Below are positions 8,889-24,075 of a stretch of DNA of 64,000 nucleotides, piece after piece (position 1 is the stretch's first letter; every line of letters starts with the position of its first letter). The notes beneath the pieces are model-generated. The model worked only from the letters and a program-made list of their open reading frames with translations, had not been told where the DNA came from and did no database searches. The stretch lies in the NCBI RefSeq assembly GCF_027594825.1, contig NZ_CP088930.1, positions 124,001 to 188,000 on the forward strand, given 5' to 3'. The stretch comes from Serratia liquefaciens (GTDB lineage: Bacteria > Pseudomonadota > Gammaproteobacteria > Enterobacterales > Enterobacteriaceae). The position numbers were made by a program, and so were the translations under genes.

Positions 8889-10310
8889 TTACGGTACGTA
8901 AATGATCTCGAAGCTGGAGGTTTTATCGTAGTAGGGCGTCATGCCGCCATCGACGTAGAAAACCTGCAGATCATAATGATAAACCAGCTTTTTATCTGGA
9001 TTAAGGATCAGATCCAGGGCCGAAACCTTGATAGTGACGTCATGATTGGGGTGGTCTTTGTTCAGCTCCAGGGTCTGGTTGTCGATATTGACCAAAATGC
9101 GTTTAATCGGACGCGGTCCCGACGGGTCATAAGCCGCACTGTCGCTTCTGAATTCAAGGGTTTTGTCGATATCCACCGGGGCGGACTGTTTGATAAAGTC
9201 GCGCACCTTGTCCTGATATTTGGCCTCCAGCGCCAACATCACCGGCAGATGGTCCGGATTGAAACCGATGAATTGCACCGCCAGATACCCTTTAAGCAGC
9301 AGGTTTTGCGGTGAGCGGTCGAATAACGCGTCCCAGATCAGCGCAAATTGCTGGGCGGGTAGCGTGAAGGAATCGACAATGCCGCTTTGCAGATTGATCA
9401 GCGCATTTTTCTCCTCGGTTTTACCCTCGGGCAACGCCAGCTGCAACGTCAGCGTGTCGGCATTGGCGAACGGCACCAGCCTGGCGTCCGCTTGCATTTG
9501 CGAAAACTGTTCTGTGGCGTTGGCAATTCGCCCCTGATTGACCTTGGGTAACAGAAAGTAGTCGAAGGTCACCTGGACTTCCCCCAGCGAGGTAGCGTGT
9601 TCAGGGGCGGAGAAAGAAATCGACAGCATGGGTTTGCCGTAGCCATCGGTGGCCAGCAGGAAGGTATCGGGCAGGTAGTAAAGGTAATTCTTGCGCACAT
9701 AATCCTGATAGTAGTTGTACCACAGCTGTTGGTACTCCAGCGGCGTCAGGATCAGTTGCAGGCGCGGCGGTGGCGGCAGGATGCCCTGATAGATATACGG
9801 GTAGTAGTTTTCGGCAAAGTAGAAAATCTTGGGATCGGTGACGGTATTGGTAATGCCGTGCTCGGTTTTAATCGCGACCACCAGCGTGGTTTGCGCATCG
9901 TAGTCGGACAAGGCCCGCAGCAGGGCGTCACGCTGCTCCAGCCGCTGCAGATCAAGCTGCGCCTGGTAGCGGTTTTCCTGTGACGTCAGCAGCACCTGAT
10001 CGAAGATCATCTCTTCGGCGCTGCCGAAGGCAGTAAAACTCAGCACCACATAGGGTATTTGCGGCACCTGACGGCTGAGCGCGAAGTCCAGTTTCATGCT
10101 CCAACTGGTGCCGTCGGTGCTGGTGGCAATCTGGTAGCGGGTTTCGCCTGAAACAACCTCGGTACAGACCTCGGCGGTCAGATCCTCCGCAGCCATGGGC
10201 GCAGCCCGTCGATAACGCAGCTGCTTGGCGGTGACGTCAGGAAACTGTTCGCGCGCATTCTGCAGAATAATTTGGTTCAGTGCCACCAGGTCATTGAGAA
10301 AGGTATTCAT
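8889..10310 (-). CDS. Unknown protein, last gene of nine-gene cassette (paralogue family member)
   Basis: This 473-residue protein has no signal peptide, no membrane helix and no family I recognise; it is predicted to be rich in beta strand. Two stretches resemble the other large proteins of the cassette. The first is YYLPDTFLLATDGYGKP at 211-227, followed by a short beta segment. The second, at 316-372, begins with TLPAQQFALIWDALF and continues through a strand-rich part with FNPDHLPVMLALEAKYQD. Here these modules sit in the middle of the chain, whereas in most relatives they sit near the N-terminus, so about 200 extra residues precede them. The ATG at 10310 has GAGGA upstream and overlaps the stop of the preceding gene by 20 bp, indicating coupled translation. 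Confidence 0.75.
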   Translation of the reverse strand: MNTFLNDLVALNQIILQNAREQFPDVTAKQLRYRRAAPMAAEDLTAEVCTEVVSGETRYQIATSTDGTSWSMKLDFALSRQVPQIPYVVLSFTAFGSAEEMIFDQVLLTSQENRYQAQLDLQRLEQRDALLRALSDYDAQTTLVVAIKTEHGITNTVTDPKIFYFAENYYPYIYQGILPPPPRLQLILTPLEYQQLWYNYYQDYVRKNYLYYLPDTFLLATDGYGKPMLSISFSAPEHATSLGEVQVTFDYFLLPKVNQGRIANATEQFSQMQADARLVPFANADTLTLQLALPEGKTEEKNALINLQSGIVDSFTLPAQQFALIWDALFDRSPQNLLLKGYLAVQFIGFNPDHLPVMLALEAKYQDKVRDFIKQSAPVDIDKTLEFRSDSAAYDPSGPRPIKRILVNIDNQTLELNKDHPNHDVTIKVSALDLILNPDKKLVYHYDLQVFYVDGGMTPYYDKTSSFEIIYVP

Positions 10311-12204
10311 GGTTATCCTCAGTAGATTCGGTTTGGGCCAGCGTTCTGAATTGGTTCAGGCAGGAAGAGGTCCAGAGGAAGCGCCCGTCGTGCCGACGGT
10401 ATAGCGGGCTTTCCAAGGGTTCCGCGGGCCATTGCCAGCGGGCCAATGCGTCAATCACGGGCGAGAGTTGCGGGATCCCCGCCTGTTTGGCGTACTCCAG
10501 GGTGGTGCGCCATTCGCCGGGGTGGGCGTAATAGGGGGTTAGCGTACTGAGCCGATCGTAACGGCCGTCGCTCCATTGCACCGCCTGATTCAGCATCTGA
10601 ATAATGCGTCGGTAGGCCGGCAATACGGCACCGTTTTCGCTCGTCAGCGTATGGAGCAGGATCAGCGCGTTGGTATTCACACAGCAATCCAGTTGGCGGA
10701 TGTCGTTGTCGTCCTTCATCCAGGTATAAAAACTTTGGCATTGTGCCCATTGGTGCTGTTCGGCGACCAGCCGGGGATCGACCCGGCGTACCTGATAGCC
10801 GTTCATATGTGAAATCGTCTGGCTGACCCGTGACAATGAAATGCGGCCAAACTTGTACAGCAGCTCGGTGATGATGGCGGTGTCGTCAATATCTGCGCAG
10901 ATGCTCTGGTTCTCCATCCATCGCGGATGGGCGGCGCTGGGCCAAAACCTGAAGTGGAACGGGCGGGCCTCGCAAGCCAGCAAAAAATCGAGCGCTTTCT
11001 CAATAAACGGCGCGGTCTGCGGGGTGTAATCCAGGGTGCGCAACACCTGCGCAGTGACAAAAGCGTTTTCATCCTGATGCCAGCGTCCGTCCGGCGTTCG
11101 GACATGGGCGGCAAAGGCGCCGCTGGCACACTGTTGCGCCAGCAGTGTCGCCAGACCCGGTCTTCCTGCCTTGAACGCCACAGGGGCAGTTTCCAGCGGC
11201 AACGCCTCAAAGCGGGTATTTTGCGGACTGAAGGTGCAACTGGTGGCGTGATGCCCTTGCAGATCAACCGAAAAGCCGACCACGTTGAACTGCAGGTCGA
11301 TCTGCTTATCCACCAGCTGTTGCAACAAGGGCAATGCCTGACCGTTTTGCGTCAACAAGGCTTGCAGCGCCGGGAATACGCGCTGGTTATCACCAAAGAA
11401 ACTGGCTGCCATGGTGAACAGGGTAAAACTTTCCAGCTTGCCGTCTGGAGCGTAGACCAGGCTAAAACCGTAGGTGGTGGGTGGAAAACCCTCGTGACTC
11501 AAGGTTTGCTGCAGGGCTTGGTCCAGCAAGGGTTCCAGCGCAGAGAACAGCGCCTCGCAGCCAAAAAAGGCCATTACCGTCGCAATATCTGCGTGGGTGA
11601 TGAGCGCGCTGTGCCACTGAAAGTAGTATTCGCGCGGCGAGGCCGGCCGCTCGGGATAATAGCCGGCCATCAGTAAAGATAAACCGGCTTGCCGACAGTC
11701 TTTCGTCGGGAAATCTTCCGCGTCGCCAGGCCAGGCGCAATCTTCAGGCACCTCCGAGTACACCTTGGTTTTAACCGCCTCCGGGGTATATTTTCGACCT
11801 AACCAGGAGCCGAACCTCAGAGGGAGAGCGCTTTGGCGCTGCATATGGCCTATCTCGGCAAAGCAACGTTCAGTATCAGGTTCAACAGGCGAGGCAGTGA
11901 TCTTTTGGCTGTGTCGATAAAAAGCCTCGATATCGCGGTTTTCCGCGTAGCGAGGTAAAAAAGGATCCAGCGTACAGGCAAGCGCCAGCGGCTTTGATGA
12001 CGAAACGGTGAACTCTAGCGGGCAACCGTTATAACCCAGCAGGCTGGTGTTAAAGGCGGCGGACAGGCAACCGGAAGCCAGGCGAGCCTGGCTGAAACGG
12101 GCGATCTCGGGCGCCAGCGTGGTCCGTAAATAGGGTGCTTTTTGGCACAGGGCGCTTACCAGGGCGTTCCATGCCGCTGGTAATACTGCATTGCGTTCGA
12201 CCAT
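10291..12204 (-). CDS. Prenyltransferase/terpene-cyclase-like alpha/alpha-toroid protein with DIDDTA motif
   Basis: The C-terminal half of this 637-residue protein reads as the alpha/alpha toroid of squalene-hopene cyclases and class II diterpene cyclases. It has DGRWHQDENAFVTAQVLRTL at 372-391, ENQSICADIDDTAIITELLY at 431-450, a VNTNALILLHTL helix at 509-520 and a final WTSSCLNQF helix. D-I-D-D-T-A at 438-443 matches the catalytic D-x-D-D motif that protonates isoprenoids in class II cyclases. The first 340 residues are different: GCPLEF near 60-65 and CTLDPF near 77-82 are faintly like aromatic prenyltransferases of the ABBA type, which I regard as weak. No signal peptide. Start ATG at 12204 lies 10 bp after the upstream stop. 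Whether it is an active cyclase is unproven. Confidence 0.7.
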   Translation of the reverse strand: MVERNAVLPAAWNALVSALCQKAPYLRTTLAPEIARFSQARLASGCLSAAFNTSLLGYNGCPLEFTVSSSKPLALACTLDPFLPRYAENRDIEAFYRHSQKITASPVEPDTERCFAEIGHMQRQSALPLRFGSWLGRKYTPEAVKTKVYSEVPEDCAWPGDAEDFPTKDCRQAGLSLLMAGYYPERPASPREYYFQWHSALITHADIATVMAFFGCEALFSALEPLLDQALQQTLSHEGFPPTTYGFSLVYAPDGKLESFTLFTMAASFFGDNQRVFPALQALLTQNGQALPLLQQLVDKQIDLQFNVVGFSVDLQGHHATSCTFSPQNTRFEALPLETAPVAFKAGRPGLATLLAQQCASGAFAAHVRTPDGRWHQDENAFVTAQVLRTLDYTPQTAPFIEKALDFLLACEARPFHFRFWPSAAHPRWMENQSICADIDDTAIITELLYKFGRISLSRVSQTISHMNGYQVRRVDPRLVAEQHQWAQCQSFYTWMKDDNDIRQLDCCVNTNALILLHTLTSENGAVLPAYRRIIQMLNQAVQWSDGRYDRLSTLTPYYAHPGEWRTTLEYAKQAGIPQLSPVIDALARWQWPAEPLESPLYRRHDGRFLWTSSCLNQFRTLAQTESTEDNHEYLSQ

Positions 12205-12214
12205 CGTCAGTCAC

Positions 12215-13870
12215 CTATGCCACGGCCGGGATAACGATGGCCGGTGGGTTTTCGCTGCCGTCTCGCGTGACGCTGTCACCGCCGACCAGCAGATAGGTGA
12301 TTTTGTAATTCACCGTCCAGGGTTTCTCGGTCAGGCAGCGATACTTGAAGGTTTGCTCTTCGGTCTTATCCGAATTAAACAGGTATTTCTTGGTTTTACG
12401 GCTCTGCTTGTCGTCCAGATAAGTCAGTTCGACAATCACCTGATTGCAATTTTCCCAGGAGAATTTTCGGTCGAGGAAAATCGAGATCTCGTTGAAGGTC
12501 AACACCGAACCGGGATCCAGGTTCAGCAGGGTCGAGGCCGAAATCGACCGTGGCTGATAGCTGCTGCTGCCTTCCCAACCGGTGGTAGCAGCAGACTTGA
12601 AGGCATATTCGCTGTCGATCACAAAGCGTTCATTCGGGTCTCTACTGCGGGACATGACCTTGCTCCATTTACCGTCATCGGCAGTAAAAGGCTCGGAAGT
12701 ATAAACCTGCTGGTTGTAACTGATTTTGAAGGTGGCGGCTTTAATGCCGTACTCGGCAAAGCCGTCTGGCCCCAGCACGGTGAAGTCGATTTTTTGGTAG
12801 AAAGGGTCGTTGACGTTAACTTCAATAAAGTAAGGCGGCTCCTTTTTGGCGCGCAGGATATCGCTGCCGATAAAGTTTTGCGGCACGGCAGATTGGCTGA
12901 GGGCTTTCGAGGAAATGTAGTTGAAGTTGAGGCTCTTGGTTTCTTCGATCCGCACCAGTTTTATCTCCAGAGAGGCACTGGGGAACAGCCCGCCTTTACC
13001 GCCTTCTTCTCCCTCTTTATTGCTCGAAATCAGCGAGTCCAAAATGGAGTCGCTGGCCGATTTGGCCTGGGTATTGCTGTCGTCATTAGGTTTGAGCGAG
13101 GCGGTAAAGAAGCTTTTCAGGATCTCTTCCTTGACGAATTGCAGCGCCCATTCTTTTTCTTTGGCTGCCTCTTCACTCGGCATGCTTTCGGTCACTTTGA
13201 TGATCAATTTCTGATCCTGCTGCAACTTCTTGATCACGCTGTCAAATCCCAGCCAGAAACTGGCGGGGGTTTCTACCGGGATTGGGATATTGGCGCCGAA
13301 TTTAAGGTCAAACTCCTTGTAGAGGCTTTCAAACTTGGCCTCGACTTCGACTTTTAACGCCGGGGTGATACCGGTAAAACCGAGGTTATAGGCCACGGCG
13401 GCCGGGGCCTGTGCCTTATTAAACGCGGTCTCGAGGATCACCGCCTGTTGCGGCGTCAGTTTGGCGCTGAAAATGGCGCTGTTATTGCCAAACAGGCTGG
13501 GGCACTGCGCGCTGATCAACTCGCCGTTGGCACTGCCCACGTCGAGCACAAAAAAGTTTACCGTACCTTTGTCATAGGGGACCTGCGCCTTACGGGCGGT
13601 TTTCGGATCAACTTTCAGTTTCCGCAGGTATTCGTTGAAGGCACTGTCCAGTTCGGCGGAATCGATGGCGGTATTCACCTCGAAGTTGAGGTAACCCCCT
13701 TGCTGGCCGGTGCCGTCGCCGGTGTACTTAATCAATGAAAAAATCGGTTTACCGTCTTTCTCTGCGATATGGATATCACCGGGTAAATACCAGAACTGAT
13801 TGTCATCAGAGTCATCGGCAAAGAAGGTGATATTTTTGATGGTGGCGGTTTTTGCTCTGAGTAATAACAT
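12215..13870 (-). CDS. Unknown protein of nine-gene cassette (paralogue family member)
   Basis: This 551-residue protein has no recognised domain, signal peptide or membrane helix. The N-terminus carries what I take to be the family module: FWYLPGDIHIAEKDGKP at 26-42 then KYTGDGTGQQGGYLNFEV at 48-65. A second shared module spans 138-190 (LTPQQAVILETAF, then GFTGITPALKVEVEAKF). A third, VNVNDPFYQKI near the middle, is matched by DLNDPFYQYI in the 716-residue neighbour. The last third is strand-rich with repeated patterns of alternating hydrophobics. The linker near residues 265-290 is rich in Ser, Asn, Gly and Glu and looks flexible. The ATG at 13870 has AAGGAA upstream and follows the previous stop by 9 bp. 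Confidence 0.75.
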   Translation of the reverse strand: MLLLRAKTATIKNITFFADDSDDNQFWYLPGDIHIAEKDGKPIFSLIKYTGDGTGQQGGYLNFEVNTAIDSAELDSAFNEYLRKLKVDPKTARKAQVPYDKGTVNFFVLDVGSANGELISAQCPSLFGNNSAIFSAKLTPQQAVILETAFNKAQAPAAVAYNLGFTGITPALKVEVEAKFESLYKEFDLKFGANIPIPVETPASFWLGFDSVIKKLQQDQKLIIKVTESMPSEEAAKEKEWALQFVKEEILKSFFTASLKPNDDSNTQAKSASDSILDSLISSNKEGEEGGKGGLFPSASLEIKLVRIEETKSLNFNYISSKALSQSAVPQNFIGSDILRAKKEPPYFIEVNVNDPFYQKIDFTVLGPDGFAEYGIKAATFKISYNQQVYTSEPFTADDGKWSKVMSRSRDPNERFVIDSEYAFKSAATTGWEGSSSYQPRSISASTLLNLDPGSVLTFNEISIFLDRKFSWENCNQVIVELTYLDDKQSRKTKKYLFNSDKTEEQTFKYRCLTEKPWTVNYKITYLLVGGDSVTRDGSENPPAIVIPAVA

Positions 13871-13879
13871 GGCGGTTCC

Positions 13880-15712
13880 TTAATTGAGGTTGGCGATATC
13901 GATATCGTCTTGAACGGTTGAGGTTTGGACGTACTCGGGTTTATCCCCTTGCCGGCCCGGTTGGTAGGTGAACCAGATCTCCAGGTCGACGCTAAGGCGT
14001 TGCGGATCGATTTGGTCGGCGCTGAACCGCTGGGGGGCGGCATCGGATTCGGTAAACTGAAAGACCTGCTGCAAGATGTCGTCATCCCCGGGCAGGTAGG
14101 CATAGCTGGCTGAAACCAGCACCATTTCGACCTGTTGCCAATCCATGTCGGCGGACAGTGTCAAGACGCGTTGGTGGTACAGGCTGGAGAACAGATACAC
14201 ATCCTGGCTGGTGGGTTCGCTCAATACCGCAGGGATATGGGGCGAATTGGCGGCGCAGCTGTACTCTTTGGTGACTTCAAACAGATAGAGGTCGGGGTTG
14301 GGCAGCATGACCGGATAGTTATGCTGCTGCGATGTCTCGCTAATCTGAAAACTTTTCGACAGGCTGGATGCCGGCAGCTTCATATGACGGCAGCGCAGGG
14401 TGACCAACACCGACTGGTACCAGCGCCAGTCAAATTGGCTGGCTGCCTTGATGACGAAATCATAGCGGCCATACAGCGACTCAATGTCCAGATAAACGTC
14501 ATTCAATTCGGTTGGCAGAGGGCCGGAATTGACCGATCTCACGCCGCCCACCGCCTGGTTGAGATAGACGGTGAAGTCGTATTCGACCGGCCACAGCATT
14601 TTTCCGGTTTTCGGATCGGTAATGCTGGGTGACCTGAAGGTTTTAGGGCCGGTATCGTCCTTACGGAAGGTGAACTGCTTGTTGTCCTTGCCGTAACGCA
14701 AACGCACCGTGACCAGTTGGACGTTCGCATCCCACTCATCCGACAGCAGATGGACCCGAACTTCGCGGTGGGCGAAGAAGTCATCCTGCAGATCGCTCTG
14801 ACCGATCACCCGATCGGCCTGATAGTCGGTACCGGCGACCAACTCGGCAAACAGTGCCTGCGGATAGAGCGAGCGTTTCACTACGGTGGTTTCGCTCAGC
14901 TTGCCGCTTAAACGTCGTTGATCAATATCCTCTACCGACAGCCGCTGCAGATAAAAACCGGGCTTTGGCTTGGCTTGTTGCGGCACATCGGCAAACACCG
15001 GGGTAAAAAACTCGCTGATCAAGATCTGCGTCAGTTCAGCCGCCGCCTGCGCAAAGTGGCCGTCGGGATCGGTGTCTCTGACTTTAATGGTCACGACTTT
15101 TTCGCTGATTAACCGCGACGAGGTTTCTTCTATATCGACGGAGAATATCAACAGGTTGAAACCGAATGACTCCTGCAGAAACTGATAAACCTGGTCCCAG
15201 CGGGCCTCCAGTTCGAAAGTGGCCGGTGGCAGCTGCTGCAGGTAGTCAATTTTATAGCTGATGGCGATGGGCGCGGTCGCGGGGGTTGCCATCAGGCTCG
15301 CCAGCAGGGCGATATCCGCCTCCGGGGGGAGTTTGGCCAGCAGGTAGCAGTTCTGTTGGTCGCTCAATGAGGTTTTGCTGGTTTGGCCGGCGACAAAGCC
15401 GGGGATGTCCAGGGTGGCGCTGCAGGCTATGGCCTGTAATGGCATTAATATCGCATCGCGAGGTATCTCCGGGCTGGCCGCTGCTGCTGCCTGCGCGGCC
15501 TCGTAGCTACTGGCCAACTGGGTTTGCAGCGACAGCATGGCATAGTAAACCGTCGCCGGCTGGCTGCTGTTACGGAAAATCTGCAGCTGGACGGCGGGCT
15601 GGTTTCCATCGATAACGCTAATGCTCGGTGCAGCCGCGCAATAGTAATAAATGGGTCTGTCCGGATCGGCTCGGATAAAACAGATGTTTTGCACTACGAT
15701 TTGGCTGTTCAT
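13880..15712 (-). CDS. Unknown protein of nine-gene cassette (paralogue family member)
   Basis: This 610-residue protein lacks a signal peptide and membrane segments. It shows weaker versions of the two shared modules: PIYYYCAAAPSISVIDGNQP at 20-39, and 128-184 with ADIALLASLM followed by LPPATFELEARWDQVYQFLQ. The second half contains two or more beta-rich repeats of similar shape, for example WRWYQSVLVTLRCRHMK and WQQVEMVLVSASYAYLPGDD, each a W-x-x-V-x-V strand pair. These look like tandem beta-sandwich domains. A 66-bp gap with a hairpin separates it from the gene upstream, the widest gap in the run of large genes. No function can be assigned. Confidence 0.72.
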   Translation of the reverse strand: MNSQIVVQNICFIRADPDRPIYYYCAAAPSISVIDGNQPAVQLQIFRNSSQPATVYYAMLSLQTQLASSYEAAQAAAAASPEIPRDAILMPLQAIACSATLDIPGFVAGQTSKTSLSDQQNCYLLAKLPPEADIALLASLMATPATAPIAISYKIDYLQQLPPATFELEARWDQVYQFLQESFGFNLLIFSVDIEETSSRLISEKVVTIKVRDTDPDGHFAQAAAELTQILISEFFTPVFADVPQQAKPKPGFYLQRLSVEDIDQRRLSGKLSETTVVKRSLYPQALFAELVAGTDYQADRVIGQSDLQDDFFAHREVRVHLLSDEWDANVQLVTVRLRYGKDNKQFTFRKDDTGPKTFRSPSITDPKTGKMLWPVEYDFTVYLNQAVGGVRSVNSGPLPTELNDVYLDIESLYGRYDFVIKAASQFDWRWYQSVLVTLRCRHMKLPASSLSKSFQISETSQQHNYPVMLPNPDLYLFEVTKEYSCAANSPHIPAVLSEPTSQDVYLFSSLYHQRVLTLSADMDWQQVEMVLVSASYAYLPGDDDILQQVFQFTESDAAPQRFSADQIDPQRLSVDLEIWFTYQPGRQGDKPEYVQTSTVQDDIDIANLN

Positions 15713-15741
15713 AGCGACAATCCCATTTGATAAAGGTGAAG

Positions 15742-15766
15742 GCAGGGCAAAGTTGTTTCGCCCTGC
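15742..15766. other. Intergenic hairpin inside the unknown cassette
   Basis: GCAGGGC at 15742-15748 pairs with GCCCTGC at 15760-15766. It falls between the 716- and 610-residue genes, in the only sizeable gap in the block of large genes. Without a T-run in the direction of transcription it is more likely an mRNA-processing or stability element than a full terminator. Confidence 0.4.
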
Positions 15767-15778
15767 GTTTTGTACCGA

Positions 15779-17929
15779 TTAGAACGTCACCACTACGATG
15801 GTGCTGGTGCCCGTCACGGGTTTTTCAACGGTTTTCTCCTGGTTGTCCTCGCCGTAATACACCGTGGCGATGTATTTGATCTGCGGCACGTTGTCAGCTT
15901 CGACCTGCATCAGATCAAAGGTCAGATACTGGGTGAGGGATTTAGTATCGAACTCGGTCAGCGCCAGGGATTGGGACTGCGTGAAGTTCCATTTCTGATA
16001 AAACACCACCATTTCAAAGGTGATCAGCGTGATGTCTTTCTGGCTTGGCTTAAAGATAATGGTGTACTTCTGCGCCTTCGGCAGGGCGTTGGCGACCAGG
16101 ATCTGATGACCGCGGATCAGCCCATATCCCGGCAGTTGCGGGTTGGTTTCAACCCCGCTGGGAATGTAGGTCAGGCTGTCGCCGTCCAGGGCATAGTAGT
16201 CGGTGGAGAAATAAATCGGTTTATCCACGTCGACGCCAATCGGATAGATAAAGGGTCTGGGTGGCGTAGATTCATTCACCACCTGATTATCTGTCTTGAG
16301 TTTGACCCCCTTGTCCGGATCGGAGTATTGCGTTTTGATCACCACCTGGCTAAAGACTTTCCAGCCCATAGGGTTAAGTAACGTAGAGATATCGGCATAA
16401 ACGATGCCGCATTCGGCCACGTTAATGGAGATAATCAAATCCTGATCGCTCTGAATTTCGCCGGAATGGTAGGGTTTGGCCTGCAGACCGGTAAAGTTGA
16501 CGGTGTAGGAATACTTAAATGCACGGCCCAGTTCGGGTTTGATAAACCACTTACCGGTTTTTTTCGGGGTGCTGTCGCTCGGGGAAAACTGCAGGGTGCT
16601 CTGGTTGTCTTTATCATAGATGGCAGTCACCACGATATTGGCGACGTTATATTGCGCCAAATCGTCGGTAACGAAAAATTCAGGCTGTATGTACTGGTAG
16701 AAAGGATCGTTGAGGTCGTACTCTTTAAAGTACTCTTTCAGATTGGGTTCGCCGACGATGGATCGGATAGACGGCAACTGAGTCTGTGGGGCGATAGCGA
16801 AGGAAACCACCGAGTTTTCATCATAGACGCGGGTAAAACTTTTGGTTTCTTTGAGGCTGGATTGGAATTTATCAAAGCCGTCGGCGTCATTGAGCAATTC
16901 GAGGCTCATATCCAGCCCGGTTTGGCTGCTTAAAATCTGCTCTACCTGTTTCTGCCCCCAGGCGGTCAGACCCTCTTTCCACTTGATGTACTGGGCATCA
17001 TCCATTCCCATTTCCTTGGCGGTCAACCCGACCTGAACGTCGATTTTGATGGCGCCTTTCTCGATATATTCTCGCTCAATCTTTTTCTCATCGGCCGACC
17101 AGGTGTGGTAACTGATGCTTTGCGTCACCGACTTGGTGATCTCGCTGTCGTAGCTGACGGTGACCTTGGCCGCCGGCAAAGAGGCGTCCAGGTTAAAGTC
17201 GAAGCGAATGCCCACGCTGGAGTTTTTGTCGGTGCCTTGCAGCACCTGTTCGAACAAAGTAGCGCCTTCGCCGGTCAGCGACAGGCTGAAAACGGTATTG
17301 TTATCTCCCAGGCCGGAGGGTGACAGCGTGGTCGGGATCTGGCGGTAGAATTTGTCGTTGCTGTCGAGAATCAAAGCCGCCTGTGCCGAGGTGTATCGCG
17401 GTTGCATCAGCTTGATTTTTTCGGCATTTTCCGGCAGTAGCTGAGCAAGAAACTGGTCAGGGCCCTTGTTGGGATCGTACAGGGCGACAAACTTGCTGGC
17501 CTGTTCATCGTTCAGGCCGCAGTTGCGCAGCGCGGTGTCCATAGTCGCTTTTTTGGTCGCGTTCTCGGGATCTGCCGCGTAGTCCTGTTCCGCTTTGACA
17601 TACTTGACGATCAGGGCTGATTTCGCCTCCAGCTGGCTTTGGATATTGCCAAACAGCTGGGCGCGAATTTTGGCCTGCAGGTCTACCGTTGGGAACGGCA
17701 GCATCACGGTAAACTGCGCGTAGCCGCCCTGGGTGTCTTCGCTGCGATACTTGTAGAACATAAAGCTTGGACTGTTCGTATCCCTGGCGACAAACACCGG
17801 CGTTTCAGGCACCACGTAAAAAATGTCCTTGTCGAGGCTGTCTCCGTAACAGGTATAGGCGCACTCTTTAATGCCCAGGTATTTATCCGTGGGGATTTTG
17901 ACCGATTGCTGCAAAGCGGTGGTTAACAT
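15779..17929 (-). CDS. Unknown protein of nine-gene cassette, largest paralogue
   Basis: The 716-residue product is the largest of the cassette. It carries the clearest copy of the shared N-terminal module: FYVVPETPVFVARD at 37-50 and KYRSEDTQGGYAQFTV at 60-75. A helical insertion (about 85-180) separates this from the second module at 217-265 (SLTGEGATLFEQVL, then LDASLPAAKVTVSYDSE). DLNDPFYQYI at 405-414 matches the 551-residue neighbour. The C-terminal 300 residues look like successive beta-sandwich domains. There is no signal peptide, membrane helix or catalytic motif that I recognise. The ATG at 17929 follows AGAGGAA and lies 24 bp after the upstream stop. Confidence 0.75.
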   Translation of the reverse strand: MLTTALQQSVKIPTDKYLGIKECAYTCYGDSLDKDIFYVVPETPVFVARDTNSPSFMFYKYRSEDTQGGYAQFTVMLPFPTVDLQAKIRAQLFGNIQSQLEAKSALIVKYVKAEQDYAADPENATKKATMDTALRNCGLNDEQASKFVALYDPNKGPDQFLAQLLPENAEKIKLMQPRYTSAQAALILDSNDKFYRQIPTTLSPSGLGDNNTVFSLSLTGEGATLFEQVLQGTDKNSSVGIRFDFNLDASLPAAKVTVSYDSEITKSVTQSISYHTWSADEKKIEREYIEKGAIKIDVQVGLTAKEMGMDDAQYIKWKEGLTAWGQKQVEQILSSQTGLDMSLELLNDADGFDKFQSSLKETKSFTRVYDENSVVSFAIAPQTQLPSIRSIVGEPNLKEYFKEYDLNDPFYQYIQPEFFVTDDLAQYNVANIVVTAIYDKDNQSTLQFSPSDSTPKKTGKWFIKPELGRAFKYSYTVNFTGLQAKPYHSGEIQSDQDLIISINVAECGIVYADISTLLNPMGWKVFSQVVIKTQYSDPDKGVKLKTDNQVVNESTPPRPFIYPIGVDVDKPIYFSTDYYALDGDSLTYIPSGVETNPQLPGYGLIRGHQILVANALPKAQKYTIIFKPSQKDITLITFEMVVFYQKWNFTQSQSLALTEFDTKSLTQYLTFDLMQVEADNVPQIKYIATVYYGEDNQEKTVEKPVTGTSTIVVVTF

Positions 17930-17953
17930 AGGGTGTTCCTCTTGTTTATGTGA

Positions 17954-19384
17954 CTACTTGTATTGCAGTTTGATGGGGCTGGCGCTGGCCTGTTGAGGGC
18001 CAGAGTCGTAGGTTTTCGGGAAAATCGACGAGGTTTTTCCTTGCCAGCGGTACTCGATTCGGCCGTTCAGTCCGGCTGAATGAGCATTGATCCACCAGTT
18101 GGCCAACCAGGGCTGGGCAGGAAACGCAAAGCTGAAGTTCTGTTTTTTACCCTGGCCGGCAGGGGTGTAACTGGCACTGCCGGAAAGGGTTTTGAAATCA
18201 GCCTTCAGGTGTTCGGCTTCAAACAGCACGCTGTAAAAACCCAGGTCTTGCGGGGTGAGTGCGATAGCGTCTTGCCAGCCGAGCGATTTTTCATAGCTGG
18301 AGTAGTCGGAAAAGGTCACTTTGAGGGTGATTTCGCTCACCGGGCTTGGCGTTTTTAAAGTCACCGGCGGGAAGCTGGGCCACTGCATAGGCGTTTGTTC
18401 ACCCGCATAGCGCAGTTCGATCGACATAATGTTGAAACCATTAGGGTTGAACCCCAGGCTGACCACGCACTGCCGGTGTTTGACCGGTTTATCCGGCCTG
18501 CTGGGCTCCGGCAACGGCGTTGCCGTAAAGGTGATGATGCTGTCGGCGGGCAGTTGGCCGAGCAGGGCGGCGATATCCTGCTGCTGCGCGAGCAAATAGC
18601 TTTGCAGTACGCTATTGCTGTATTTCACGTCATAGCTGAGCTGGTTGGGGATCTCATCTATGGAGTGGATATTTCGCAGCGTGTTGCTGACCAATTGCGA
18701 TGCGGTTTTCACCAGCGCGTTTCTGACCAGTTCACGGGTCTGCTCCGACGGGGCATTGTCGAACTGCTCCAGCAGCATGACCACGCCGGCGTCGATCTGT
18801 TGGTTAAGCAGAATGGCAATGGCCTCTGGCTGGCGAGCCTGTTGGTTGAAGGCCAGGGTCAAAAAGGCCACCCAGTCCGTTTCCAGGCTGGCGGTGACGC
18901 GGCTGCTGACGGTGAACTTGCTGTGCGTCACCAGGTAAACCTGGTTTTTGGCCCCGCGAACGGCATTGTCCAACAACGCTGACTCGGCATGGGTCAGCGG
19001 CATTTTTGACTGTTCAAACTCGACGTTATAACTGTCAGATTCAGGCTGGTGAGCAAAACGCAGAAACAGCGTCTGGCGAATATCGCCTTGTTCCAGACGG
19101 ATCGGTTTCGGCGCAGGAATGAAATGCTGGCGGATGTAAGCCTCAATTGCCGCGGTATCGACCGGCATATTGGGGGCGATGAAGGTCGCCAGGCCGCCGC
19201 CGGGGCTGGTCAGCAAATGCAATGCGCTGACCTTGCCACCCGGAGTGTCCATTATCACCTGCGGTATGAAACTGCCGTAGGTGTAGCACTCGGCGGGCAG
19301 GCTTTGGTCGTGGAAAGCAAAGGCCCTGCCAAGCAGGAAAAAATTCTGCAATGCTTGTTGCGGGTTCAACTCATCAGTGTTCAT
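17954..19384 (-). CDS. Unknown protein of nine-gene cassette (divergent paralogue)
   Basis: This 476-residue protein is the most divergent of the six presumed relatives. The second shared module can be seen at 127-178: MPLTHAESALLDNAV followed by VYLVTHSKFTVSSRVTASLE and TDWVAFLTLAF. The N-terminal module is hardly recognisable (SFIPQVIMDTPGGKVSALHL). The C-terminal part has beta-sandwich-like strands and ends in a W-x-x-x-W-W-I-N stretch and a basic tail. The ATG at 19384 overlaps the upstream TGA by four bases (ATGA), with AAGGTG ahead of it, so translation is coupled to the gene before it. Confidence 0.72.
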   Translation of the reverse strand: MNTDELNPQQALQNFFLLGRAFAFHDQSLPAECYTYGSFIPQVIMDTPGGKVSALHLLTSPGGGLATFIAPNMPVDTAAIEAYIRQHFIPAPKPIRLEQGDIRQTLFLRFAHQPESDSYNVEFEQSKMPLTHAESALLDNAVRGAKNQVYLVTHSKFTVSSRVTASLETDWVAFLTLAFNQQARQPEAIAILLNQQIDAGVVMLLEQFDNAPSEQTRELVRNALVKTASQLVSNTLRNIHSIDEIPNQLSYDVKYSNSVLQSYLLAQQQDIAALLGQLPADSIITFTATPLPEPSRPDKPVKHRQCVVSLGFNPNGFNIMSIELRYAGEQTPMQWPSFPPVTLKTPSPVSEITLKVTFSDYSSYEKSLGWQDAIALTPQDLGFYSVLFEAEHLKADFKTLSGSASYTPAGQGKKQNFSFAFPAQPWLANWWINAHSAGLNGRIEYRWQGKTSSIFPKTYDSGPQQASASPIKLQYK

Positions 19385-21132
19385 TTTTCACCTTTGACAT
19401 CAATCGTTTGATCGCCGGTCACAATCTCGGACCATGGGCTATCGTCGGTTTTGTAACGAAATCCGGCTGCAAAAATAGAGGTAACGTTCCATCGATAATC
19501 GAAGCTGTTTTGCTGGTGGGTAAAGATGTGATCCGTCGTGCGGCTTTCGTTTTGCTGCTGGAATGTCACCTTGAAAGTGGGCAGGTTGTCCGGAAAATGG
19601 ACGGTGATACGCGCCTGCTGCGCACCAAATTGCGGGAAGCTGTAAGCGCCGATAGTGGTGGCTTGAGTTATCGGCATGGGCAAAGCGACAACGCCGGTGT
19701 CGCCTAGCTGGTAGGCCGTCGCTTCGGCATAGGTTTCGTCGCCGAGAATAGGGCAACTGAAATAGGAGGCGGCCGCGGTTAACGCCAAATCCTGCAGCCA
19801 GCCGGCGGAATGATAAAGCCCGCTAATTCGGCTTTGCCGGGCAAACCCCGGATCAAGGCTGATGGTCAGAAATTGGCAGGGCAGCGCGGCGTAATCCAGT
19901 ACCAGCGCAGGCTTGGCGCAGGAGCGCAGTTCGCTACTCAGCTTGCGCCAACTGCCATCCTGTGAATAGTTGACCCGAATTTGGTAGAAGAAAGGCACCA
20001 CTTCCAGCGCGCTGGTTTTGAAGCGGAAAATCAATCGGCTTTGATCTGGCGTCAGCATCTTCGTTTGCGTCTGCTCCACCGGGTAAATATCGCCACCCGG
20101 CAGGGTTAGCTGAATATCGACAGACACGCTGCTTTTCAACCCAAGCGGATAGGCGTAAAAGACGTCGATCTCCCGCTCACCCGAGGGCAATGGTGGGGCC
20201 GTAGAACGGTGAATAATGGCATCGGGAGTGGTTTTGACGATTTGCTGCGCAGCGGCAAAGGGATCCAGTATGAAGCACAGAGGGCGTCGACTCAGCACCA
20301 GCGAATCGAGTTTGAAAATCACCCGGCCGCCTTGATCAGGCACCGTCAGGGCAATCATTGCCGTGTTGCTGGAGGCCGGACCGGCGTAGGGAGAACCCAG
20401 CAAATTGTAAAGCCGATCAAGCAACGCCTGACTGAAAAGCAGGTTTTGTTCAGGATCCTTTGTCGGCAAAGGCGGGCTGATTTGCAGCGGTAACAAAGCA
20501 ATATTTTGATAGATATATTGCGTCAACAGGCCGTAATCAAAGGCCACCCGACTGTCGTCGAGAGTTTGTGAACCTTTGACCCCGTTGGCTAAATCAAGCA
20601 TCAGCGCCCTGGGATCAAATTCGACGGAATAGGCCAGACGGGGCGAGACGCCCTCAACAAACCCGTCCATACGGGCATTAAAACCGAGTGTTTCATCCTG
20701 CAGGGTTTTCTCAATCAGCTCGGTGCTGGCCGAATTGAGCAAAATAATAAATTGAGTGCACTGCGCCGAATACCAGGTGGGGTCATAGCTTTGCCCGCTG
20801 AGGGCGCTGTGATACTCAATAGGGACGTTAAACCCCAGGCTGCCGGGCAACACGGGCAGCACCTTAATGGCTTTATCCGGGTGCTGTTGTTTGAACTCCG
20901 CCAGGCTTTGCTCGCCGGCATACTGCAGTTCGACAGTGAAATTCAACCAGCCGTAGACGCTGTCGGTACTGGGACTGCGGACAATATCCAACGAGAACGC
21001 CAGTGGATCAGCAACCAGAATACTGACGGATTCGGGGTATAAAAAATAGGCGTCGTTTTGCCGATAAGTGGCAATAAACCTTTGCCTGTCGGTGACGATA
21101 ATCTGCTCAAAGTCCGGGTATCCCTCATACAT
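19381..21132 (-). CDS. Unknown protein of nine-gene cassette (paralogue family member)
   Basis: This 583-residue protein has the N-terminal module as FLYPESVSILVAD at 30-42 and SVYGWLNFTVEL at 58-69, and the second module at 128-180 (SASTELIEKTLQDE, then EGVSPRLAYSVEFDPRAL). The remaining 400 residues are predicted beta-rich, with an internal linker rich in Pro at 310-320. No secretion signal, membrane helix or enzyme motif is visible. It starts 4 bp after the stop of the Hint-domain gene and ends in an ATGA overlap with the next gene, so all three are almost certainly translated from one mRNA. Confidence 0.73.
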   Translation of the reverse strand: MYEGYPDFEQIIVTDRQRFIATYRQNDAYFLYPESVSILVADPLAFSLDIVRSPSTDSVYGWLNFTVELQYAGEQSLAEFKQQHPDKAIKVLPVLPGSLGFNVPIEYHSALSGQSYDPTWYSAQCTQFIILLNSASTELIEKTLQDETLGFNARMDGFVEGVSPRLAYSVEFDPRALMLDLANGVKGSQTLDDSRVAFDYGLLTQYIYQNIALLPLQISPPLPTKDPEQNLLFSQALLDRLYNLLGSPYAGPASSNTAMIALTVPDQGGRVIFKLDSLVLSRRPLCFILDPFAAAQQIVKTTPDAIIHRSTAPPLPSGEREIDVFYAYPLGLKSSVSVDIQLTLPGGDIYPVEQTQTKMLTPDQSRLIFRFKTSALEVVPFFYQIRVNYSQDGSWRKLSSELRSCAKPALVLDYAALPCQFLTISLDPGFARQSRISGLYHSAGWLQDLALTAAASYFSCPILGDETYAEATAYQLGDTGVVALPMPITQATTIGAYSFPQFGAQQARITVHFPDNLPTFKVTFQQQNESRTTDHIFTHQQNSFDYRWNVTSIFAAGFRYKTDDSPWSEIVTGDQTIDVKGEK

Positions 21133-21136
21133 GAGA

Positions 21137-22726
21137 TTATTTCCCCGCTTTATCGAGATGATTTTGATAATCCTGATGCCATTCTTTCGGCAATTTGCTC
21201 AGCACGTTAGCGGGGCGCTGATGATATTCATCCTCATAGATCCTTTGCATCTGAATATCACCCACCAGTATGCCGTTGGCATACAGGCAGTTATCGGTGT
21301 AGTGCTCGTCGTGGGAGGAAAGTTGCAGGTTGTAGACTTTCAGAACGCCCTGCTGTTGAACAATGCTAATGATTTCGCTTTCGCCATCCAGGGTGATTAA
21401 TTTACTGGATGGGGTTAATTCCCGAGCTATGACCACGCCTGACGGCGTGATGAAAGGGTGGCCCAAACTGGTGGTGATATTATTTTTCTTACCCGTGCTA
21501 TTGCGCACGCTAATCTTGATATAATGGTGCTCCTGGCCGCTGGTAACCGCCTCAACGCGTAGCGGTTTATTATTTTTCGATAATACAGTCTCACCAATAT
21601 CTATGGCGGAAATCGGTTTTTCACTGCCATTCTGCATTAGGATTTTGCTGTCACCCGCCAGGCACCCGTACACGATACGCATCGGTTTTAATTGTACGGT
21701 ATTTAAAAAACGTTGGTCCGGTTCGATTTCTTTCGGAGCATTGGTAATAAACGCAACTATGCTTTTCCCCTCAACGTTAAGAATGACCTTGAAAACATAA
21801 TAGATCCATTCGCCCGAATCAAAATTGACCTGATTAAACCTCAGCCAGTCCAGGTCCCAGGAAATATTGTTGCCATTGATTCGGGTGTTAGCGGAGTTGA
21901 AAATATTATAGTTACCAAAAGGAGTGACGGGATCGCCACCCGCCCGCGTGCGGATTAGATAAATAGTATTACTGGCTTTAACCGGCTGGCCACCGCTAAG
22001 TTCAATTTGACCCAGATAGGTGATATTTCCTTTGATGGGCACTCTGACCGAGCCGTCATAGGTATTACGGTAGTCGCAGTCGGGTTCATCACGGGTTAAA
22101 CAAATCTTTATTTCGTTCGGGTTGATAATACTTCGAGGCGACTCATTGTAAATATCCTTGGGATAACTCTGCGTGGTGATAATTTCTGCGCCGTATATCG
22201 TCTCTCTGTCAATCGTTTGGGCAAAGGTATAAATCACCGTGACCGGATAATCGGTAGCGATCTGGCTGCCTGGATAAACCCCATTGGCGCTGAGGGTACA
22301 GTCTGCGGCATAGACATAAGCCTGGTTGTAGTTCACCGTGCCGACATTAACCGCTTCGCCGTCAAACAGTCCCAGGGTTTGCGTCACGTTGGCGGCGGAT
22401 ACCGGCAGGGAGCCAATGGCGTCAGCACGGTAATTGCTGCCGTCGGTAGAATCCAGCCGCACTATGCTGTAGACCGGTTGAGCCGACCCGTTATTGGCCT
22501 CGGTCAACCGGCCGCCGCTGCGTTTTAGCCGTTTTGTTTCTTGCCAGCATTGGGTGAACTGCGGGGAGTAGCCTGAGGTGAGGCCGGCAAGTTTGAGTTG
22601 AATGTCATAAAAACTGACCAGCAAGGGATCGCCGGGCTCAATAATAAACAGTCCGGTGTTGCTATATTTGCCGATGACATTTTTGACAATACTCTTTTCA
22701 TCTGACGTATAACCTTGTGTGATCAT
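21137..22726 (-). CDS. Protein with C-terminal Hint (hedgehog/intein) autoprocessing domain
   Basis: The first 350 residues are unfamiliar and strand-rich. From Cys355 (GCLAGDSKILMQNGSEKPIS) the chain becomes a Hint domain: the nucleophilic Cys directly follows Gly, a block-B-like SLGHPF lies at about 420-425, and the closing strand is CLYANGILVGD at about 480-490. Hint domains form a thioester at the first Cys and cleave or transfer the upstream part. The usual C-terminal His-Asn is replaced by Gly-Asp, so splicing or C-terminal cleavage is not expected; N-terminal cleavage or attachment to a nucleophile is. About 39 residues follow the domain. I chose the ATG at 22726 (529 residues); a TTG at 22741 would add five residues. 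Neither start has a strong ribosome site. Confidence 0.78.
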   Translation of the reverse strand: MITQGYTSDEKSIVKNVIGKYSNTGLFIIEPGDPLLVSFYDIQLKLAGLTSGYSPQFTQCWQETKRLKRSGGRLTEANNGSAQPVYSIVRLDSTDGSNYRADAIGSLPVSAANVTQTLGLFDGEAVNVGTVNYNQAYVYAADCTLSANGVYPGSQIATDYPVTVIYTFAQTIDRETIYGAEIITTQSYPKDIYNESPRSIINPNEIKICLTRDEPDCDYRNTYDGSVRVPIKGNITYLGQIELSGGQPVKASNTIYLIRTRAGGDPVTPFGNYNIFNSANTRINGNNISWDLDWLRFNQVNFDSGEWIYYVFKVILNVEGKSIVAFITNAPKEIEPDQRFLNTVQLKPMRIVYGCLAGDSKILMQNGSEKPISAIDIGETVLSKNNKPLRVEAVTSGQEHHYIKISVRNSTGKKNNITTSLGHPFITPSGVVIARELTPSSKLITLDGESEIISIVQQQGVLKVYNLQLSSHDEHYTDNCLYANGILVGDIQMQRIYEDEYHQRPANVLSKLPKEWHQDYQNHLDKAGK

Positions 22727-22804
22727 AATATCAGCACCCAATAGTATTTAGATGTAAACGCAGGGAATAACCTATGAGATTAAAAAAGAATTTGAGCTTT
22801 GCGT

Positions 22805-23329
22805 TTATTTACAGGTTTCTTTGCAGTAAGAATAAATAGCGCTCAGACTGTCGGAACCAAGATATTGTTCAAATTCACCGTCGGTAGGGTCGATATCAGG
22901 ATCCAGCGTCATGCCATACAGCTCTTGAGCAAACATCGCTTTGGTCGCTGAAGGCTTACTTTTAAAGTAAGTTTTTAACTTTCCTTTGCTGACTTTTCGT
23001 ATCCAGGCAAATTCGCCCCCCAGGGCAACTTTGCCGGTGAAGATGAAGTCTTTACTGGTATAAAAACTGATGTCGTTAGGGTAAACCTGATAACGAACAA
23101 CCTGTTGGACTTCAATATTATGCAAAGTCTCTTCCCAGGTTTCTCTTTTAATGACGTTTAACGCAAAATACTTACCGTCAACCGGGCCGTCTTTTGCATC
23201 TGCGGTACCCCCAAATAACATTGGGCAGCCTCTGGCGAAGCCGGTGTTTTTTAACCCTAAAAGAATAAAATCATTATTCCCAACGGCCGCAGGGTTACTG
23301 TCGAGAATGACGTATTTTTTAATGGGCAT
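22805..23329 (-). CDS. Nudix-like protein, first gene of the nine-gene cassette
   Basis: This 174-residue protein has a degenerate Nudix signature. A Gly-Gly turn (MLFGGTADAKDGPVDGKYFA, residues 37-56) is followed by KRETWEETL at 61-69, which resembles the R-E-x-x-E-E core that binds magnesium in Nudix hydrolases. The spacing from the Gly turn to the Arg is longer than in the canonical Nudix box and the acidic residue between them is not in register, so activity is uncertain. The start at 23329 is preferred to the upstream ATG at 23347 because AAGGA lies 7 bases before it. It leads the cassette and is separated from the Hint gene by 78 bp. Confidence 0.65.
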   Translation of the reverse strand: MPIKKYVILDSNPAAVGNNDFILLGLKNTGFARGCPMLFGGTADAKDGPVDGKYFALNVIKRETWEETLHNIEVQQVVRYQVYPNDISFYTSKDFIFTGKVALGGEFAWIRKVSKGKLKTYFKSKPSATKAMFAQELYGMTLDPDIDPTDGEFEQYLGSDSLSAIYSYCKETCK

Positions 23330-23880
23330 AGTCAGGTCCTTATGCATTTTTCAGTATAAAAATAAGGTTTATTGGTCGGTTCGGGAGCGATGAATGACTC
23401 ATCATCAACAATAGCAATGGCGACTAAAAAATCAACCAACACATAAAAATAAATGAAGTGTTTTAAAGTGTTTTGACAGATAGTCAAATAAATCACTGCG
23501 TTAACCGGGGCAGGAAAAAAACGTTTAAACAATCAAATAAAGAGGAGGTTGTTGTTAATTTTTTCGTTAATAAATTCTTTACTCTTATTAAATCAATGCA
23601 TTGTATTCCCATTGCGTCAATATGATTTTCTTGTTATTTAAATAATGGTGAACCGTTAGCTTTGAAATTAGTTCATTGTTAGGATTTTCTTTAATCATAA
23701 TGGTTGTGAATACTTAAACAAACCGTTGAGAGTGGTGAGAAAATCCACGCATTGTTCATTAATTCAGTGTGGCGTTAATGCTAAAGCTTCCGCCGGATTA
23801 GGGCGGAAAGCGTCAGAAGCCGAACGAAGGGCCAACGTGATCCGGATCCGCCAGATGGTATTGTTGTGCGCCATCTGATG
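23330..23880. promoter_or_regulatory. AT-rich 550-bp leader upstream of the nine-gene cassette
   Basis: No convincing gene lies here. The stretch 23350-23770 is much richer in A and T than the surrounding coding DNA. It lies immediately upstream of the first cassette gene, so it probably holds that operon's promoter and is a plausible target for silencing by H-NS-type proteins. I cannot place a promoter with confidence. Towards 23850-23877 an inverted repeat, CAGATGG and CCATCTG, precedes the end of the ribbon-helix-helix gene. Confidence 0.5.
23786..23811 (-). terminator. Possible terminator of the ribbon-helix-helix gene
   Basis: On the minus strand GCTTTCCGCC and GGCGGAAGC form a stem with a one-base bulge, followed by a short TTTAG. 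It is about 70 bp beyond the stop of the small regulator gene at 23881, on the strand that gene is read from. Confidence 0.4.
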
Positions 23881-24075
23881 TCAGACGCTGTCCACCCGAG
23901 GATTGGAGTGGGTAGGCTGGCTGGGATACTCCACCTGGTGCTTGTGCAGATAGTCACGTATCAACTGACGGATCACCTGAGAGGGGGTCACGTCCTGTTG
24001 CAGACAGAGTTCTTCCAGGGCTTTTTTCTTGTCTGGGTCGATAAGGACGGTCAGACGCGCCGTTTTCTTTTCCAT
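23881..24075 (-). CDS. Ribbon-helix-helix (CopG/MetJ-type) DNA-binding protein
   Basis: The 64-residue product shows the short beta strand KKTARLTVLIDPDKKKALEE followed by two helices (LCLQQDVTPSQVIRQLIRDY), the pattern of CopG-type ribbon-helix-helix proteins. Such proteins dimerise and bind palindromic operators; many are antitoxins or small autoregulators. No toxin gene is paired with it. It lies upstream of the unknown cassette on the same strand, separated by the AT-rich leader, and downstream of the SpeE-like gene. ATGATAATCAAATGATCAT just upstream of its start is a possible autoregulatory operator. The last 15 residues are polar and probably disordered. Confidence 0.8.
   Translation of the reverse strand: MEKKTARLTVLIDPDKKKALEELCLQQDVTPSQVIRQLIRDYLHKHQVEYPSQPTHSNPRVDSV

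Follow-up and report, generated by a model that had tools for sequence, protein, structure and literature searches.

A Serratia cassette linking a predicted prenyltransferase–terpene cyclase fusion to large scaffold-like proteins and a Hint protein

The window analysed here, a 64,000-nucleotide stretch of a single-contig, 5.35-Mb genome of Serratia liquefaciens (NZ_CP088930.1, positions 124,001 to 188,000), carries on its minus strand a cassette of nine genes, g1 to g9 in order of transcription. A predicted model and alignments show that the g8 protein joins two parts, a prenyltransferase barrel of the DMATS type (P) and a class II terpene cyclase domain (C). In distant bacteria, P and C genes adjoin genes of a family of large proteins, here called scaffolds, to which g5 belongs. 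The conserved unit is the eight genes g2–g9, which include a Hint protein (g2); g1 lies outside it. This unit has the look of a so far undescribed system that produces molecules, perhaps proteins, decorated with terpenes. The nearest named locus is that of a S. liquefaciens metagenome-assembled genome, with 99% identity in g5.

The g8 protein and its gene neighbours in distant bacteria

An earlier note, made from the sequence alone, had described g8 as a terpene-cyclase-like toroid. An isoprenoid-type enzyme is upheld, with the toroid forming only the C-terminal half of a prenyltransferase–cyclase fusion, and g8 can no longer be counted among the large proteins that fit no known family. In the predicted model, P adopts the PT-barrel fold with five alpha-alpha-beta-beta repeats, which is how an excerpt of PMC3227686 defines that fold. 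The DxDD acid motif of C sits in a helical toroid, as in class II cyclases (model and alignment); residues 477–497 of this domain are poorly modelled. All 28 aligned g8 proteins keep DxDD and all eight wider C domains keep DxDDT; G60, P62, E64, K147, Y149 and Y194 are likewise invariant in eight of eight aligned P proteins. Foldseek with the model places Streptomyces 5-DMATS (6zrz), IptA, PriB and CymD among the nearest structural relatives of P, and drimenol synthase (AsDMS) nearest to C.

A tblastn search of plasmids with g8 returned two records. On plasmid3 of Calothrix sp. NIES-4101, the order is a 775-aa g5-family protein, P, C and a 209-aa scaffold-like piece, and C lies in the frame of P with one stop between them (L058, 8980–10821). 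On plasmid 5 of Azospirillum lipoferum 4B, the order is Mak-like genes, a 750-aa g5-family protein, P and C. A C-domain profile run over 398 genomes of the phylum recovered our genome and two others, G706 and G694. G706 has the order 796-aa scaffold, P, C and 1197-aa protein; in G694, a class II-like toroid bearing a DxDD motif (L065, 8252–9481) stands alone, beside genes resembling, by eye, those for a P450 and a glycosyltransferase. A scaffold gene is therefore adjacent in three of the four contexts that were reached through g8 or C rather than through the scaffold, and absent in one.

A further locus, in genome G477 (L041/L042, G477:C6:34925-52245), was found through the scaffold and not through P or C. 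It holds a scaffold-like array of four genes with profile support and two suspected ones, interrupted by one unrelated gene. One gene best fits g5 and a later one best fits g7; the gene between them best fits the g7 profile, yet is the best match of g6 there. Next after the g7-like gene comes a P-like protein standing on its own (hhalign E 4.6e-5, with a score exceeding those of all 60 shuffles); a Nal1-like protease (PF25819/PF25608) and then an Amidase_3 protein lie beyond it. Profile-supported scaffold genes also occur in G974 (two; L053, 5688–14414), G1099 (four; L054, 4490–15889) and G862 (two), with more recognised by eye; those of G974 and G1099 form tandem arrays, and the fetched stretches of these two genomes gave no Hint match.

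The Calothrix locus also encodes a 1494-aa protein (13578–18062) whose C-terminus is weakly like the g5 scaffold (hhalign E 6e-4, probability 28%). In Azospirillum (L059, 2249–5735), MakB and MakA are matched with NCBIfam E values of 2.7e-122 and 5.4e-129, and a third, weaker Mak-like match likewise lies directly upstream of the scaffold, P and C genes.

Conservation and spread of the cassette

All nine minus-strand frames claimed earlier were recovered with agreeing starts, stops and spacings, except that the former end at 23329 corresponds to an internal, in-frame ATG of g1, six codons in; the gene stands and its boundary moves (Table 1). The gaps from g1 to g9 are +63, +4, −4, +24, +66, +9, +10 and −20 bp. 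By eye, purine-rich ribosome sites are clear at g3, g4, g5, g7 and g9, weak at g6 and g8, and missing at g1 and g2, in agreement with the claim of such sites before most genes. The ratio of nonsynonymous to synonymous substitution rates (dN/dS), computed against two loci only, is 0.06–0.16 for all nine genes against L025 (Serratia proteamaculans) and 0.125–0.187 for g2–g9 against L034 (Serratia nevei). These low values indicate purifying selection, and hence nine frames beyond chance. The picture of closely packed genes on one strand, most of whose products are unrecognised, is thus borne out.

A g5 profile built from 34 of 63 proteins identified 13 loci in the contigs searched, belonging to Serratia (7), Enterobacter (2), Erwinia, Kosakonia, Pantoea and Pectobacterium. 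Genes g2–g9 are complete, with order and strand kept, in 12 of the 13, so the earlier expectation that the genes travel together is confirmed by gene-neighbourhood comparison. The remaining locus, L027, starts inside g3 at a contig end and has the other genes through g9; two of the complete loci (L035 and L036) contain broken frames, which were left unmended. Since the loci were selected by g5, its presence is not independent evidence of conservation. Among seven of the 13 loci inspected, with genes named by eye, the flanks differ between genera, and the Serratia loci have the downstream side partly in common. Because its flanks differ between genera, the cassette looks mobile as a single block.

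The cassette is uncommon. The g5 gene was found in 11 of 30 same-genus genomes (our own included), whereas g7 was found in one of 394 genomes of the order, which is our own, and in two of 398 of the phylum, the second being the distant match in G477. A wider g7 profile found four of 369 genomes of the class and one of 78 of the class of G477. Searches for g7 in plasmids, phage records, E. coli and IMG/VR gave no match. None of the nine proteins matched the phage families of PHROGs at E 0.01, and defence models gave a single weak match, in the Hint region.

The Hint protein, the scaffold proteins and g1

The Hint domain that had been read in g2 was confirmed by PF07591 (E 4.5e-8, above cut-off), and the region matches intein, bacterial intein-like (BIL) and ADP-ribosyltransferase HINT chains in the PDB. 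Hint autoprocessing domains have a first Cys and a conserved block-B His. Both features are present in g2 as C360 and H428, and the surrounding Y358-G359-C360 and G427-H428-P429 are invariant in ten of ten aligned sequences. Splicing inteins carry a C-terminal His-Asn and a following nucleophile. The g2 Hint domain ends in VGD, and G494-D495, invariant in the same ten sequences, occupies the place of His-Asn, which speaks against a splicing intein. From invariant C360 and H428 without His-Asn, we predict that g2 would perform N-terminal cleavage or transfer instead of splicing. The tail beyond the domain carries an invariant Trp521. The probable start codon of g2 is the ATG at 22726, the invariant Met6 of the alignment, rather than the upstream TTG at 22741 (22724–22741, minus strand).

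The large beta-rich proteins had been suggested to be related. Profiles bear this out for g5, g6 and g7; for g3, g4 and g9 the likeness is by eye, without profile support. The scaffold family reaches no Pfam, NCBIfam or PHROG cut-off. In the g7 model, an N-terminal part of low confidence precedes two Ig-like sandwiches. Metagenomic and actinobacterial relatives of g7 are 746–1007 aa long, one of them named Micropruina. The suggestion that the products are cytoplasmic, lacking signal peptides, fits the cassette by eye and extends less well to its distant relatives, as several scaffolds of G974, G1099 and G862 have signal-peptide-like starts, also by eye. Some of the g7 relatives P0166–P0173 have long low-complexity linkers.

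The g1 protein, described earlier as Nudix-like, has a stretch that by eye recalls a Nudix box; it matches no family in Pfam or NCBIfam at E 1 and is present in six of the 13 loci, all Serratia and one of them partial. The gap preceding g1 holds a 64-aa open reading frame (ORF) at 23881–24075 (minus strand) that looks ribbon-helix-helix-like by eye. The leader at ~23360–23460 (minus strand) and the DNA preceding g2 in L028, L030 and L032 are similar by eye across Serratia, Enterobacter and Erwinia, a likeness that yields weak small-ORF matches across genera; the leader upstream of g1 or g2 possibly contains a shared promoter.

Table 1 Genes and domains of the cassette (positions in the window).
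Feature	Position	Strand	Description	Basis
g1	22805..23347	-	180 aa; Nudix-like by eye only; accessory	frame; dN/dS 0.06; Serratia only
g2	21137..22741	-	534 aa; N-terminal part (1–359), Hint domain, ~40-aa conserved C-terminal tail	frame, PF07591, alignment
g2 Hint domain	21257..21664	-	residues 360–495	PF07591, PDB chains, alignment
g3	19381..21132	-	583 aa; large beta-rich; scaffold family by eye only	
g4	17954..19384	-	476 aa; large beta-rich; scaffold family by eye only	
g5	15779..17929	-	716 aa; scaffold family	profiles; distant relatives adjoin P and C genes
g6	13880..15712	-	610 aa; paralogous to g5 and g7 within the scaffold family	profiles
g7	12215..13870	-	551 aa; scaffold family	profiles and model
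g7 Ig-like domains	12218..12805	-	two beta-sandwiches, residues 356–446 and 456–551	predicted model
g8	10291..12204	-	637 aa; P–C fusion: ABBA prenyltransferase barrel and class II terpene cyclase domain	
g8 P domain	11200..12204	-	residues 1–335; ten-stranded barrel	predicted model and alignment
g8 C domain	10318..11178	-	residues 343–629; class II terpene cyclase fold	predicted model and alignment
g8 DxDD motif	10882..10893	-	D438-I439-D440-D441; acid motif	alignments
g9	8889..10310	-	473 aa; large beta-rich	best profile match weak, to G477 array member

Proposed mechanism, alternatives and known systems

The genome contains two polyprenyl synthase genes, presumably those for the farnesyl diphosphate (FPP) and octaprenyl diphosphate enzymes. 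Because it holds only these two, the C15 compound FPP is most likely the prenyl donor. No convincing gene for a short precursor was found within ~1.4-kb flanks in the window and eight of the 13 loci, genes further away not being searched; comparison of 253 small ORFs (25–110 aa) gave six weak cross-genus pairs (E 0.002–0.009). As no clear cross-genus short ORF emerged, a conserved cassette protein or a metabolite is the more likely acceptor. Every one of g2–g9 has invariant tryptophans, none of which is singled out as acceptor.

The earlier note had suggested a dedicated assembly or modified-product system. An isoprenoid enzyme, a Hint protein, three paralogous scaffold-like proteins and conserved linkage agree with this, with the amendments that the enzyme is a fusion and that g1 lies outside the unit. 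From the predicted architecture, the conservation and the gene linkage, we infer prenyl transfer, cyclisation on an acceptor, Hint self-cleavage and assembly, and propose tentatively, at somewhat less than an even chance, that g2–g9 are a terpenylation-and-assembly system. P would bind a prenyl diphosphate, most likely FPP, and transfer the chain to an aromatic side chain (Trp or Tyr) of a cassette protein. C would then use its DxDD acid to protonate the attached chain and close its rings, as the fusion enzyme NctPC does on ribosomal peptides. Scaffolds g5–g7, perhaps with g3, g4 and g9, would form a particle or membrane-active complex bearing the terpenoid, and g2 would cut itself at Gly359/Cys360 through a Hint thioester, so that its N-terminal part is released or handed over. 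A more specific version, which we consider unlikely, is that the cassette builds terpene-lipidated protein assemblies: the scaffold complex would receive a polycyclic isoprenoid from its own P–C enzyme, and the Hint protein would release its N-terminal part or hand that part on, from its thioester at Cys360, either to a partner or to a terpenoid alcohol, as a bacterial counterpart of protein prenylation and Hedgehog cholesterylation.

Several findings weigh against terpenylation and assembly. Among curated family models, g8 matches neither PF11991 nor TIGR03429 at E 1 and passes no cut-off; PF11991 gave 0 of 1 on our own genome, and the Calothrix P matches TIGR03429 weakly (E 0.018, below cut-off). 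There is no match of g8 to PDB sequences, and whole-chain TM-scores from Foldseek are low (IptA, 0.57 of target, root-mean-square deviation (rmsd) 6.5; AsDMS, 0.30, rmsd 19.4). DMATS enzymes have a diphosphate-binding Arg/Lys and a tyrosine shield; of such residues, K147 and Y149 are kept. In a sequence alignment of four Enterobacterales P domains with four stand-alone P proteins, position A76 is Ala/Ser in the former and Arg in the latter, and position 263 is Phe and Tyr, respectively. With these positions changed, prenyl transfer by the Enterobacterales P may be weakened or altered. In the distant genomes, the class II-like toroid of G694 occurs alone, its fetched stretch containing neither scaffold nor P; G477 has P without C, and the hhalign probability of its P-like match is only 68%. 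The stretches fetched from G974, G1099 and G862 contained neither P nor C, so scaffolds can work without terpenylation. The P–C loci fetched from distant genomes gave no Hint match, and the g2 Hint domain lacks the C-terminal His-Asn. Finally, the overall quality of the g7 model is low (pTM 0.46), and the label scaffold therefore rests on size, paralogy and Ig-like domains.

Some of the same evidence bears on other explanations. The enzymes nearest to P (6zrz, IptA, PriB and CymD) mostly act on free tryptophan or small indoles, and drimenol synthase, nearest to C, cyclises free FPP (PMC9128629, in excerpt). Both facts would suit a small-molecule route in which g8 turns a free aromatic metabolite (tryptophan, indole or tyrosine) into a meroterpenoid by prenylation and cyclisation, and the large proteins bind, store or export the product. 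We consider this serious but rather unlikely, given that the conserved unit has no recognisable tailoring enzyme or transporter, that several large proteins per metabolite would be unusual, and that a large scaffold gene adjoins P and C in three distant lineages. The altered Arg and Tyr positions of the P domains from Enterobacterales would also fit a pseudo-enzyme, with barrel and toroid serving as binding modules of a purely structural complex; the invariant DxDDT of C, the invariant E64, K147, Y149 and Y194 of P, and purifying selection on g8 (dN/dS 0.16–0.17) make this improbable.

A membrane-attack or adhesion complex, in which g3–g9 form a multi-component assembly that makes pores or binds surfaces, with any terpenoid made serving as its membrane anchor, appears distinctly unlikely. 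Ordinary terpenylation of a ribosomally synthesized and post-translationally modified peptide (RiPP), with g8 acting on a short precursor encoded elsewhere and the large proteins incidental, would parallel the action of NctPC (PMC13290415, in excerpt); it is very improbable in light of the small-ORF comparison and of the large proteins being retained in 13 of 13 loci as far as contigs extend.

The P–C architecture adjoins a family of large unnamed proteins in one cyanobacterium and several Pseudomonadota. To our knowledge, short ribosomal peptides are the only recorded targets to which a cyclised terpene is attached after translation. If the large proteins are the substrate of terpenylation, bacteria make terpene-anchored protein machines. 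The scaffold–P–C triad also offers a search handle and a simple biochemical test for a scaffold gene family that reaches Actinobacteria.

Compared with the DMATS aromatic prenyltransferases (Streptomyces 5-DMATS 6zrz, IptA, PriB, CymD and FgaPT2), g8 shows 9–13% identity, below family cut-offs, and differs in that its P is fused to a cyclase and, in Enterobacterales, departs at one Arg and one Tyr position. It shares with AsDMS a helical toroid, a DxDD-type acid motif and a second, N-terminal domain, but at 13–14% identity, with a prenyltransferase in place of the HAD-like domain and DxDD in place of DxDTT (PMC9128629). Another protein with a class II terpene cyclase domain, named in an excerpt of PMC13290415, is MstE. 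Like inteins, bacterial intein-like domains, PT-HINT and Hedgehog Hog, g2 has a Gly-Cys start, a conserved His and PF07591; unlike them, it has no C-terminal His-Asn, an unrecognised N-terminal part and the conserved tail with Trp521. The Mak operon of Vibrio, Mak-like counterparts of which adjoin scaffold, P and C genes in Azospirillum, encodes a tripartite alpha-pore-forming toxin, and PMC11484084 describes MakC and MakD as lacking close structural relatives; Pfam and NCBIfam scans of the Serratia cassette gave no match to Mak families.

Literature searches returned no description of P and C linked to large unnamed proteins and a Hint protein. The closest parallel is NctPC (Hubrich et al. 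2024), an ABBA prenyltransferase–class II cyclase fusion that, according to an excerpt of PMC13290415, attaches a C20 chain to Trp of ribosomal peptides, which is then cyclised. Judged by described architecture and not by sequence, g8 resembles it in that a single protein holds both an ABBA-barrel P and, as C, a monodomain class II cyclase. In contrast to the short ribosomal peptide and C20 chain of NctPC, the cassette has no clear conserved short precursor, a Hint protein with six large proteins, and probably a C15 chain; for want of a nearby short precursor, we do not class it as a RiPP cluster despite the NctPC-like architecture. We regard g8 as a further, new example of an architecture already described. 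The linkage of P and C to scaffold and Hint proteins appears new at the system level, and the cassette as a whole may well go beyond a known kind of system.

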